DNA of 64,000 nucleotides from NCBI GenBank assembly GCA_031292275.1, contig JARLHL010000113.1, forward strand, positions 1 to 64,000, given 5' to 3'. Made by a program: the position numbers and the translations under genes. The number at the start of each line of letters is the position of its first letter. Positions within the stretch are counted from its first letter, which is position 1. Shown piece after piece: positions 12,431-15,526 of this stretch. The DNA is from Desulfocapsaceae bacterium. Its GTDB lineage: Bacteria; Desulfobacterota; Desulfobulbia; Desulfobulbales; Desulfocapsaceae. The notes under the pieces are model-generated. The model searched no databases. It saw nothing but the letters and a program-made list of their open reading frames with translations, and was not told where the DNA came from.

Positions 12431-13101
12431 TGGCCCTCTTCGAAGCGCAAGAAATCACCAAAACCTACCAGGAGGGGACCAAGGCGATTACCATCCTGAA
12501 GGGAATCGATCTGGCGGTAGAGGCTGGAGTCATGACTGCCATCATCGGCGCATCGGGATCCGGTAAGTCTACCCTGCTGAAGATTATGGGTACCCTGGAA
12601 GCCCCGACATCGGGACGCATGATCTTCCAGGGCCAGGATCTGACCCGAAAGAATGATATGGCACAGGCGCATTTCCGCAACCGGTCGCTGGGCTTCATCT
12701 TTCAGTTCCACCACCTGCTCCCCGAGTTCTCTGCCCTGGAAAATGTGATGATGCCGGGGCTTATCGCCGGCAGGAACCGCAAGGAAATGGAGGGGCCGGC
12801 TATGGAACTCCTGCAGATGGTCGAGGTTGACCACCGGCACAGCCACAGAGTACATGAACTTTCCGGCGGCGAGCAGCAGCGCACGGCCCTGGCCCGGGCC
12901 CTGATCATGCAGCCTGCCCTGCTGCTGGCCGACGAACCTACCGGCAACCTGGACAGCCGGGCCGGTAATCTGGTCTTCGATCTCCTGCACAGGCTGTGCA
13001 GAGAACGCAAACTCACCGCCTTGATGGTCACCCACAATATGGAGCTGGCCCATAAGATGGATGCCTGCCTGACCCTGAAGGACGGAATCCTGGCAGGCTA
13101 G
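12430..13101 (+). CDS. lolD: Lipoprotein-releasing ABC transporter ATPase LolD
   Basis: The cytosolic ATPase subunit (223 residues) that powers lipoprotein release with the LolC/E permease. Walker A is GASGSGKST, the signature is LSGGEQQRTALARAL, and Walker B is LLADEPTGNLD; the Q loop is seen in FIFQFHHLLPEFSALENV, typical of the LolD/MacB subfamily. The ATG at 12430 overlaps the permease stop as ATGA. A longer open frame upstream lies inside lolC and is not used. The gene is convergent with the dsrE-like gene, 31 bases apart. Confidence 0.95.
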   Translation: MALFEAQEITKTYQEGTKAITILKGIDLAVEAGVMTAIIGASGSGKSTLLKIMGTLEAPTSGRMIFQGQDLTRKNDMAQAHFRNRSLGFIFQFHHLLPEFSALENVMMPGLIAGRNRKEMEGPAMELLQMVEVDHRHSHRVHELSGGEQQRTALARALIMQPALLLADEPTGNLDSRAGNLVFDLLHRLCRERKLTALMVTHNMELAHKMDACLTLKDGILAG

Positions 13102-13132: not shown

Positions 13133-13573
13133 TCAGGTAAACATATTGATCTGGCAGTGGGCAGCCTGCTTCAGAAACTCTTCTGCGGTCATTACGGTGA
13201 CCCCATTGATCAGATCTTCTTTTTTTATCTTCATCATCTCCATGGTCATATGGCAGGCCACAAGCTGCACCCCCTCAAGGGAACAGAGTTCGATCAGGGT
13301 TGGAATATCAGGGATATTCGCCTCTTCCACCTGCTTACGCATCATGGATGATGCCAGTTGCGGCATGCCGGGGATTGCACCCATGGGGCCTATCGGATAA
13401 AATTTGAGTTTTTCAGCACCGCCTTTTTTGATCACATCAAGCCCGAAAAAGGTATAAAAGATTGTAGCCTTATGTCCGAGCCGGACAGTATTCAGGGCCA
13501 GGACCAGCGAGGGATATGCGCCATCAAGGGTCCCTCGGGAGCAGATAAACTGGTAGTTCTTTTTCTCTTCCAT
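13133..13573 (-). CDS. DsrE/DsrF-like sulfur-related protein
   Basis: A 146-residue cytosolic protein of the DsrE_2 family, small Rossmann-like proteins that often carry or transfer persulfide sulfur. Features seen are the N-terminal FICSRGTLDGAYPSLVLAL, the Met/Gly-rich GPMGAIPGMPQLASSMM typical of this subgroup, and the conserved cysteine C107 in LVACHMTMEMM, with C97 nearby. No membrane segment. The start follows AAGGAG. It lies 60 bases downstream of the marR-like gene in the same direction and has a close copy of that gene's palindrome 24 bases before its ATG, so it is the likely regulated target. The actual sulfur donor and acceptor are unknown. Confidence 0.85.
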   Translation of the reverse strand: MEEKKNYQFICSRGTLDGAYPSLVLALNTVRLGHKATIFYTFFGLDVIKKGGAEKLKFYPIGPMGAIPGMPQLASSMMRKQVEEANIPDIPTLIELCSLEGVQLVACHMTMEMMKIKKEDLINGVTVMTAEEFLKQAAHCQINMFT

Positions 13574-13596
13574 TAGAGGGATCTCTCCTTTTTATT

Positions 13597-13611
13597 GTTC
13601 ATAGTATTAAC
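13597..13611. promoter_or_regulatory. Putative MarR operator upstream of dsrE-like gene
   Basis: GTTCATAGTATTAAC is a near-palindrome differing by one base from the perfect palindrome at the marR start. On the minus strand the identity continues as ATGAACAATAAA in both places, so about 20 bases are shared. Confidence 0.6.
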
Positions 13612-13633
13612 TTCATCTGCATATTTTTTTTTC

Positions 13634-14107
13634 CTACACCAGCAGTTCCCGCACCGATTCCAGGGAGCGTTTGAGCTGCGAGAGCCCATTCAAAAGCCAG
13701 ACCCGCTGCTCCAAGGAAAACTGATTCAGGACCCCTTGGTGCATCTCCCGCCGGAAGGACAGGATTTCACGGGCCAGCCCATCCCCGCCTGCAGTCAGCT
13801 TCAACAGCTTCACCCGGCAGTCCTCAGGATCATCGGTTCGCTCCACCAGTTTCCTCCGCAACAGGCCGTCAACAATCTTCGTCACCCTGCTCTTGGCGAC
13901 GTTCAGTCGTCCTGCCAGGGCCTTCGCGGTCAGATACCGTTCGTTCTGGAACTGCAGCAGGCAGCGAAGCTCCGCATCCGGCAGACCGAACCGCTCGCTC
14001 TGATACTGCATACGTTCCTGACAACACTGAAAAAGCGCGTCGATCAGTCCCTCGAATTCAAGGACATGACGATCCGGAATATGATCTTTCCTCTCTTTAT
14101 TGTTCAT
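13634..14107 (-). CDS. MarR-family transcriptional regulator
   Basis: A 157-residue winged-helix dimeric regulator. The helix-turn-helix is at about 59-82 (LTAKALAGRLNVAKSRVTKI) and the wing at 90-105 (RTDDPEDCRVKLLKLT). Four cysteines (28, 29, 49, 97) could sense thiol oxidation or persulfide, as in some MarR proteins; this is inference. The chosen ATG at 14107 lies inside a perfect palindrome and just after a promoter, with no ribosome-binding site, so the message could be leaderless. The frame is open for 26 more codons upstream, but those would lie over the promoter. The neighbouring dsrE-like gene shares the palindrome, suggesting autoregulation plus control of dsrE. Confidence 0.88.
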   Translation of the reverse strand: MNNKERKDHIPDRHVLEFEGLIDALFQCCQERMQYQSERFGLPDAELRCLLQFQNERYLTAKALAGRLNVAKSRVTKIVDGLLRRKLVERTDDPEDCRVKLLKLTAGGDGLAREILSFRREMHQGVLNQFSLEQRVWLLNGLSQLKRSLESVRELLV

Positions 14108-14116
14108 ACTATGAAC
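14102..14116. promoter_or_regulatory. Perfect 15-bp palindrome at the marR start, putative operator
   Basis: GTTCATACTATGAAC is a perfect inverted repeat with 7-base arms around one central base. It overlaps the marR start codon (14105-14107) and the edge of the -10 box, a usual place for MarR autorepression. Confidence 0.65.
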
Positions 14117-14142
14117 TTTAACCGCAATAAATAAAAAGTCAA
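14115..14142 (-). promoter_or_regulatory. Promoter of the marR-like gene
   Basis: On the minus strand TTGACT (14142-14137) is followed after 16 bases by TAAAGT (14120-14115). Transcription would begin near 14108, essentially at the ATG, consistent with a leaderless message and the missing ribosome-binding site. Confidence 0.5.
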
Positions 14143-14308: not shown

Positions 14309-15526
14309 TTATCGAATCCCGCCATCTTTTATTTTTCCCGGCTGCTGTGACTCTGCCGGAAAGCGGATAATAAATTTGGAACCCTGGCCCGGTATGCTGG
14401 TGGCCATGATCTCGCCCCCGTGCCGTTCGGCGATCCGCTTGCAGATAGAAAGGCCGATTCCCGTTCCCTCAAAACTGTCCTTTGAGTGAAGGCGCTCGAA
14501 GAGATTAAAGATCTTTGCGGATTCCTTCTCATCGAAGCCAATGCCGTGATCCTCGACAATAATCTCCCATTGCCCGGTATTCTGATCCGGGTTGATCTGA
14601 CGACTGTAGATATTGATCGTCGGGACTTCACCGGGTTTATGAAATTTCAAAGCATTACTGATCAGGTTTTTCAGCAGCTGATACATCTGGCCGTAATCGG
14701 CATAGACTGAAGGCAACGACTTCAGGGTAACAACGGCATCCTCCTTGCGAAGGAAAAATTCCATGTCCAGGATCACCTCTTTGGCAATATCGTTCAGATC
14801 GATAGGAGTCATAGCCTTTTGTTGCGTCGCAATCCGGGAGTAATTCAACATGCTGTCCAGCAGCATCTGCATATGCTGAGAGGCCTTTTCTATCTGCTGA
14901 AGATAGATACTGCCCTTTGACGCAGCATCCTGAAAAAATTTGGCCCGCAGTCGATCGCTGAAGGCCTGGATAAGGAAAATTGATTCTCTGAGATCATGGG
15001 AGGCCATATAGCCGAAGGCCAGAAGATCTTTGTTCCGCTGTTCCAATTTTTCAATATGGGCTTCAAGCTTCTTCTTGATTGTCAATTTTTCCGTAATGTC
15101 CCGGTTGCTCACATACCTGCCGAGAAATTTGCCATCTTCGTCGTATACCGGCTTGCAATAATGCGAAATATACCGCTGTTCACCCTCTCGAGTTGTAATA
15201 CAGAAATTCAGATGGCAGGTACGGGCATCGGAAAAATCATCGACAAAATGCCTGACGATCATACTTCGCTCACGCTCGTGGGTGATGGATACCAGCAAGC
15301 CAGGATCAGCCTCGAAATCCTCTGCACGATAACCAGTTATCCTCTCGCATGACGGGGAGATAAAGCTGAGGTTCTGTTCAGGGGTGATCCAGTACGTCCA
15401 ATCGGAAGAGTTCTGCATAATGACCTTCAGCTTCTGACGGTTCTCCCGAAGCACAGCCACCTCCTGCTCTAATATCTTGTTTTTTTGCAGTAATTCGTCA
15501 TATGTCGGTCGAGTCGTCATAAGCAT
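14309..15526 (-). CDS. Soluble PAS-domain sensor histidine kinase
   Basis: A 405-residue kinase with no membrane segment, so it senses a cytosolic signal. A short coiled coil (about 8-35) leads into a PAS domain at about 32-148 with a PAC tail (GRYVSNRDITE). The HisKA helix carries H177 in MASHDLRESI, the phytochrome-like type. The ATPase has N box NLISNALKFHKP, G1 VEDHGIGFDE, F box-like IFNLFERLH and G2 GTGIGLSI. PAS cavities may hold haem or flavin, but no ligand residues can be assigned. There is no adjacent response regulator. An alternative start is the ATG two codons in. Its partner is unknown. Confidence 0.92.
   Translation of the reverse strand: MLMTTRPTYDELLQKNKILEQEVAVLRENRQKLKVIMQNSSDWTYWITPEQNLSFISPSCERITGYRAEDFEADPGLLVSITHERERSMIVRHFVDDFSDARTCHLNFCITTREGEQRYISHYCKPVYDEDGKFLGRYVSNRDITEKLTIKKKLEAHIEKLEQRNKDLLAFGYMASHDLRESIFLIQAFSDRLRAKFFQDAASKGSIYLQQIEKASQHMQMLLDSMLNYSRIATQQKAMTPIDLNDIAKEVILDMEFFLRKEDAVVTLKSLPSVYADYGQMYQLLKNLISNALKFHKPGEVPTINIYSRQINPDQNTGQWEIIVEDHGIGFDEKESAKIFNLFERLHSKDSFEGTGIGLSICKRIAERHGGEIMATSIPGQGSKFIIRFPAESQQPGKIKDGGIR

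Follow-up and report, generated by a model that had tools for sequence, protein, structure and literature searches.

Several MarR-family proteins sense sulfane sulfur through cysteines, namely E. coli MarR, P. aeruginosa MexR and OhrR, and S. aureus MgrA, and excerpts of the same account state that these proteins react to oxidants as well (PMC11211675). On the side of the sulfur carriers, DsrE2 of the A. vinosum type is described, in an excerpt of PMC12998232, as having two transmembrane helices. Whether DsrE-type, TusA and YeeE/YedE genes serve oxidation or disproportionation in Desulfobacterota is actively debated. The literature on the YTD cluster and DsrEFH type II in Desulfobulbales names no MarR regulator in the portions available (PMC13293266, PMC13047784, PMC12998232, PMC9751629; "MarR" in PMC13047784 belongs to the name of an author), and none is seen in the opening of the abstract that describes the DsrE3A-DsrE2B-TusA cluster of Metallosphaera cuprina (PMC4175335). 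In the literature on MarR proteins and other regulators found with sulfur genes, no description of the MarR presented here was found. The marR-dsrE pair described below probably forms a control unit that responds to sulfur and has so far escaped description; its layout recurs in distant sulfate-reducer relatives, next to other genes for handling sulfur. Its parts are of known kind; their arrangement is new.

The window, that is, the whole stretch of DNA that was analysed, comprises 64,000 nucleotides from a Desulfocapsaceae bacterium. Its marR and dsrE genes lie on the same (minus) strand, separated by 60 bases, and the locus contains the following features:

13133 to 13573, minus strand: dsrE2-like sulfur-carrier gene, 146 aa (PF13686), with an invariant Cys in ACHMTMEMM
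13585 to 13590, minus strand: Shine-Dalgarno AAGGAG of dsrE, read from the sequence
13597 to 13611, no strand: operator 2, between marR and dsrE, with no promoter of its own by promoter search
13634 to 14107, minus strand: marR, MarR-family regulator, 157 aa, with its ATG inside operator 1 and with conserved C28-C29 and C49
14102 to 14116, no strand: operator 1, a perfect palindrome that extends over the -10 end, the predicted start of transcription and the ATG of marR
14115 to 14142, minus strand: predicted marR promoter from the promoter search, with -35 TTGACT (14142-14137), a 16-bp spacer and -10 TAAAGT (14120-14115)

The marR product scores 41.1 bits against Pfam MarR_2 (cut-off 27) and 37.2 bits against MarR (cut-off 24.6), which places it in PF01047/PF12802. 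The dsrE product scores 134.8 bits against Pfam DrsE_2, PF13686 (cut-off 25), and a genome search finds its gene to be the only PF13686 gene, in single copy; it reaches 97 bits against the NCBIfam equivalog SulfCarrDsrE2 (NF047629), below the cut-off of 210. The cysteine of ACHMTMEMM, which is presumably sulfur-binding, is kept in all 18 of the 18 aligned relatives. There is no match to PF04143, the YedE type, anywhere in the genome of the window, and TusA matches lie only at other places in the genome and not beside dsrE; the marR-associated unit is reduced here to marR-dsrE2 alone. On its far side, dsrE is convergent with an ABC-transporter ATPase gene that ends at 13101 and that we take to be LolD-like. 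A PAS-domain sensor histidine kinase gene (14309-15526) lies directly 5′ of marR and has the same orientation.

The preliminary description reported a palindrome at the marR start and a near copy before dsrE, and both are confirmed, at 14102-14116 and 13597-13611, respectively. Operator 1 is GTTCATACTATGAAC, a perfect 7+1+7 palindrome that holds the marR ATG (14107-14105) in its right arm on the minus strand. Normal promoter spacing would place the start of transcription at, or up to a few bases 5′ of, the marR ATG. The marR mRNA should thus be nearly leaderless, which is consistent with the absence of a Shine-Dalgarno sequence before marR. Autorepression of marR is predicted, since a dimer on operator 1 would cover the -10 end, the start site and the start codon.

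Within the MarR family, the regulator falls into a subfamily of its own with 30 loci in 27 genomes of Desulfobacterota, related loci that are not independent of one another. A protein search gave a match in 14 of 193 related genomes, and a profile made from 16 of the matched proteins gave a match in 14 of 395 genomes sampled across the phylum, with one genome (G000) common to both sets. The profile matches have E-values of 1e-47 or better, with nothing further down to the limit of 1e-20. When the orthologous loci are anchored on the ATG, which builds the ATG into operator 1, 27 of 29 have a 15-mer palindrome lying over it. These 27 also have a -35 box of the TTGAC type that starts 35-40 nt 5′ of the ATG, with the variants TTGCC in L069 and TGGAC in L078. 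L077 was left unanchored: it keeps the palindrome, and its start is a TTG downstream of it. At the 27 first sites, the mean best joint promoter score is 9.8 of 12, compared to 7.3 (sd 0.9) in shuffled sequence.

An operator matrix gives 13.1-23.9 bits for the 27 standard loci, and -3.7 and -18.6 for L035 and L040, which lack the palindrome at the marR start and were left out when the matrix was built. Both are additional marR copies, found in G095 and G125, genomes that each carry a standard copy too. Neither L035 nor L040 has DsrE2 or TusA within its own gene cluster, and L040 has a weak DsrE match ~1.9 kb from marR.

Further sites in the genome of the window were proposed as a subject of search in the preliminary description, and the scan returned no multitude of unrelated ones: exact matches to GTTMATASTATKAAC in the 4,138,390 bases are two only, operators 1 and 2. 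Six further sites stand at two mismatches and score 11.7-14.6 bits, compared to 22.2 and 23.9 for the operators, by a matrix from which the window was excluded. Of these six, five overlap an ORF of at least 80 aa. With such low scores and overlaps, the scan gives no support to a wider regulon in this genome. The exact pattern GTTMAYANTRTKAAC was sought in 14 genomes (~53 Mb), which are 13 genomes with this MarR plus G070, a genome unmatched in the 193-genome protein search. It occurs at 13 sites, 12 of them at the locus of this MarR (one of them 5′ of a FadL gene, in G050), and the reversed control pattern occurs once. The single off-locus match (G138:C7:40303-40317, L090) likewise lies over a start codon, that of a different small MarR-like gene. 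It may represent convergence, as if two unrelated MarR genes shared the same self-operator design.

Read on the minus strand, operator 2 is GTTAATACTATGAAC, which differs from operator 1 by one change in a comparison across orientation. The site lies 22 bases past the marR stop codon and ends 23 bases 5′ of the dsrE ATG (13573). A common leader of about 20 bases was also claimed for the two genes, and this claim survives in part: ATGAACAATAAA is found at both palindromes in the window, with AATAAA behind the operator at each. In G001, the nearest relative and of the same genus, the two leaders, AACAATAAAGAG and AACAAATATGGAG, have no such six-base tail in common. The AATAAA is therefore probably a coincidence near the A-rich Shine-Dalgarno region. 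A conserved leader peptide starting from operator 2 was likewise considered and rejected, because the 9-codon frame of the window, MNNKKERSL, which overlaps the dsrE start, is not kept in relatives. The corresponding frame is different in G001, stops after two codons in L039 and enters dsrE in L028.

Among the relatives, 110 bases around each marR stop were scanned for a second site with a leave-one-out matrix and a threshold of 9 bits. A second site scoring at least 9 bits is present at 13 of 30 loci, compared to 0.5% of 3321 background windows, and begins 16-23 nt past the marR stop in 11 of the 13 (74 and 8 nt in the others). Operator 2 is missing at the remaining 17 of 30 loci. Its presence or absence switches six times on the protein tree, and at least three switches are forced by well-supported branches, which indicates that operator 2 has been gained or lost repeatedly. 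The proposal that DsrE-family levels are set in parallel with the regulator is upheld insofar as the operator before dsrE is real, and it lacks the promoter signal at operator 2 that parallel control would use: sigma-70-like promoter scores at the 13 second sites are 7.0, compared to 7.2 (sd 0.8) in shuffled sequence.

The genes that accompany this MarR handle sulfur at most loci. Of the 30 loci, 23 carry a DsrE2-type gene (PF13686) within the marR gene cluster, 18 carry TusA and 13 a FadL-like porin; some of the loci reach contig edges. The DsrE2 proteins beside the same MarR go down to 20% identity with that of the window. Of the seven clusters without DsrE2, two (L012 and L066) lie close to the end of a contig, two (L037 and L039) have rhodanese genes, and three (L079, L035 and L040) show neither feature. 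By Pfam, L037 carries a rhodanese; L030 carries DrsE_2, two divergently encoded Sulf_transp (YeeE/YedE) proteins and Toluene_X/FadL; and L070 carries PF13686, TusA, a nitrate-reductase-gamma membrane protein (DsrM-like) and a Fer4/CCG protein (HdrD/DsrK-like). We take the names DsrM, HdrD and DsrK to denote likenesses only. On sequence grounds, this gene company (DsrE2, TusA, HdrD/DsrK-like, YeeE/YedE, rhodanese) ties the MarR to sulfur much more firmly across the phylum than the window could, and sulfur sensing by the regulator is strongly suggested by it. The small sulfur-responsive unit that was first proposed accordingly holds up as one regulator with two operators and a sulfur-handling target, specific to its locus, with a predicted response to sulfur.

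Other arrangements were seen in the same neighborhoods. The DsrM-like and HdrD/DsrK-like genes follow TusA in the marR operon (L070:7258-9281) in several Desulfobacterota and are possibly an electron-transfer module for the sulfur relay. Operator-like sites with three mismatches (GTAAATnnTATGAAC) stand before divergent YeeE/YedE pairs at L031:7037, L032:6822, L033:1860 and L034:1262, which suggests that the transporter may be in the same regulon as marR. Strong operator copies at L012:1057 and L066:6660 lie ~330-400 bases 5′ of FadL-like porin genes that adjoin this marR; a role of the porin in sulfur or polysulfide uptake is a guess.

The mechanism that we propose begins with marR and dsrE as one operon, transcribed from a single sigma-70 promoter 5′ of marR. 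A MarR dimer on operator 1 would repress its own nearly leaderless mRNA, and a dimer on operator 2, past the marR stop, would block the polymerase, so that leaky transcripts would end after marR and dsrE would be off. Persulfide or polysulfide would then modify Cys28-Cys29, perhaps Cys49 too, the dimer would leave both sites, and the DsrE2 carrier would be made. As a whole, one operon with a MarR repressor on both operators, released by reactive sulfur at cysteines, is moderately likely. Its parts differ in strength: the MarR very probably binds both operators, its action as a repressor can be predicted with good confidence, and the balance tips slightly toward reactive sulfur species, acting through the cysteines, as the signal.

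The cysteines themselves allow more than one reading. The four noted in the preliminary description are there (C28, C29, C49 and C97, numbered from the ATG). The vicinal C28-C29 pair is present at 30 of 30 loci, partly by selection, since all 16 proteins of the profile have it; C49 is present at 28 of 30, replaced by T in L037 and by S in L067, and C97 is found in the window protein alone among 16 aligned. In the monomer model (pLDDT 90.6), helices span residues 12-40 and 44-55, with the CC pair in helix 1 and C49 in helix 2. The model has the MarR fold (PDB 2rdp, Z 16.2, rmsd 1.8, 140 residues), and its best-matching solved relatives are of the YusO and MepR types, ordinary MarR folds that are not thiol sensors. 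By a rough mapping from stretch ends, the CC position is unlike that of the MexR sensing cysteines, and we take it to be unlike those of OhrR and MgrA as well. The pair could be structural, metal-binding or peroxide-sensing. An AdcR-like zinc site was considered as well; the best NCBIfam match, AdcR, stays at 36.3 bits, compared to a cut-off of 175. The solved relatives and the position of the CC pair favor an alternative in which the same regulator and operators answer a non-sulfur signal (a small organic ligand, a metal or peroxide) and the cysteines are structural, as does the range of ligands that the MarR fold binds according to excerpts of PMC11211675. Such a signal is nonetheless unlikely, given an invariant CC, a nearly invariant C49, and sulfur-transfer neighbors at 23 of 30 loci with rhodanese instead at two more.

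What operator 2 does is the other point on which readings divide. Since no sigma-70-like promoter is found there, it is more likely a roadblock to elongation than a control on a dsrE promoter; a block of elongating polymerase at this site remains a tentative reading, put at somewhat below an even chance. A T-run of at least six follows the marR stop at 7 of 13 loci with the second site, compared to 1 of 17 without, in a post hoc comparison of related loci that was made once the runs were noticed; it could aid polymerase release, and in the window an A-run, not a T-run, follows the stop. A real second dsrE promoter, of which operator 2 would be part and which would be regulated in parallel to marR, would explain why the site is immediately 5′ of the dsrE Shine-Dalgarno, and operator 1 does lie on a promoter. 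Scores at the second sites are at the shuffled level, however, while those at the first sites rise well above theirs, which makes this promoter improbable; one of a non-sigma-70 or poor-consensus kind is possible. A repression loop, in which MarR dimers would bridge operators 1 and 2 over ~505 bp, could draw on two strong sites at near-constant spacing at many loci, but that spacing is dictated by the length of the marR gene, and more than half of the loci lack site 2. We know of no MarR dimers that loop DNA of this length unaided, and the loop is quite unlikely. That the palindromes arose by chance at an A+T-rich start and leader is extremely improbable: two such sites with three mismatches arise in 7 of 100 shuffles of the window, which makes them unremarkable in the window alone, and chance is refuted by their uniqueness in the genome and their conservation across the phylum.

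Read most broadly, operator 2 would be a promoterless, regulated roadblock by which one repressor gates both its own promoter and read-through into the sulfur gene while the complete marR message passes, and the locus would found a phylum-wide class of reactive-sulfur-sensing MarR proteins of sulfate reducers; this broad version is doubtful. With its conserved repressor and defined operator, the unit offers a direct handle on the debated sulfur genes: it predicts which genes group together, and the inducer of the MarR would reveal the sulfur species that the pathway handles.

Among known systems, as far as excerpts of these describe them, the unit most resembles sulfur-trafficking clusters, ArsR-type sulfane-sulfur repressors and the sulfane-sulfur MarR proteins. 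Unlike the YTD cluster and DsrEFH type II, the window unit is without YedE and TusA, and its DsrE is of the PF13686 type (PMC13293266, PMC13047784, PMC12998232, PMC9751629). The Metallosphaera cuprina cluster also places a DsrE-type carrier by TusA and Hdr-like genes, in an archaeon (PMC4175335). Hyphomicrobium sHdrR/SoxR (PMC12423496) and SoxT (PMC11582611) share with it a sulfur-linked repressor, sulfur-oxidation/Hdr-like genes and YeeE-like transporters nearby, the response to sulfur being a predicted one here; sHdrR/SoxR, which are sulfane-sulfur repressors of sulfur-oxidation genes, are of the ArsR type and from an alphaproteobacterium, whereas the window regulator is a MarR from Desulfobacterota (PMC12423496). 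With the sulfane-sulfur MarR proteins it shares the MarR fold, a cysteine-containing repressor and sulfane sulfur as the likely modulator, which in this case we infer (PMC11211675). The targets of those proteins are genes for drug efflux, peroxide or virulence, whereas the window-type MarR is found in sulfur-trafficking operons, with its helix-1 CC pair at a different place and its operator over a nearly leaderless start (PMC11211675).
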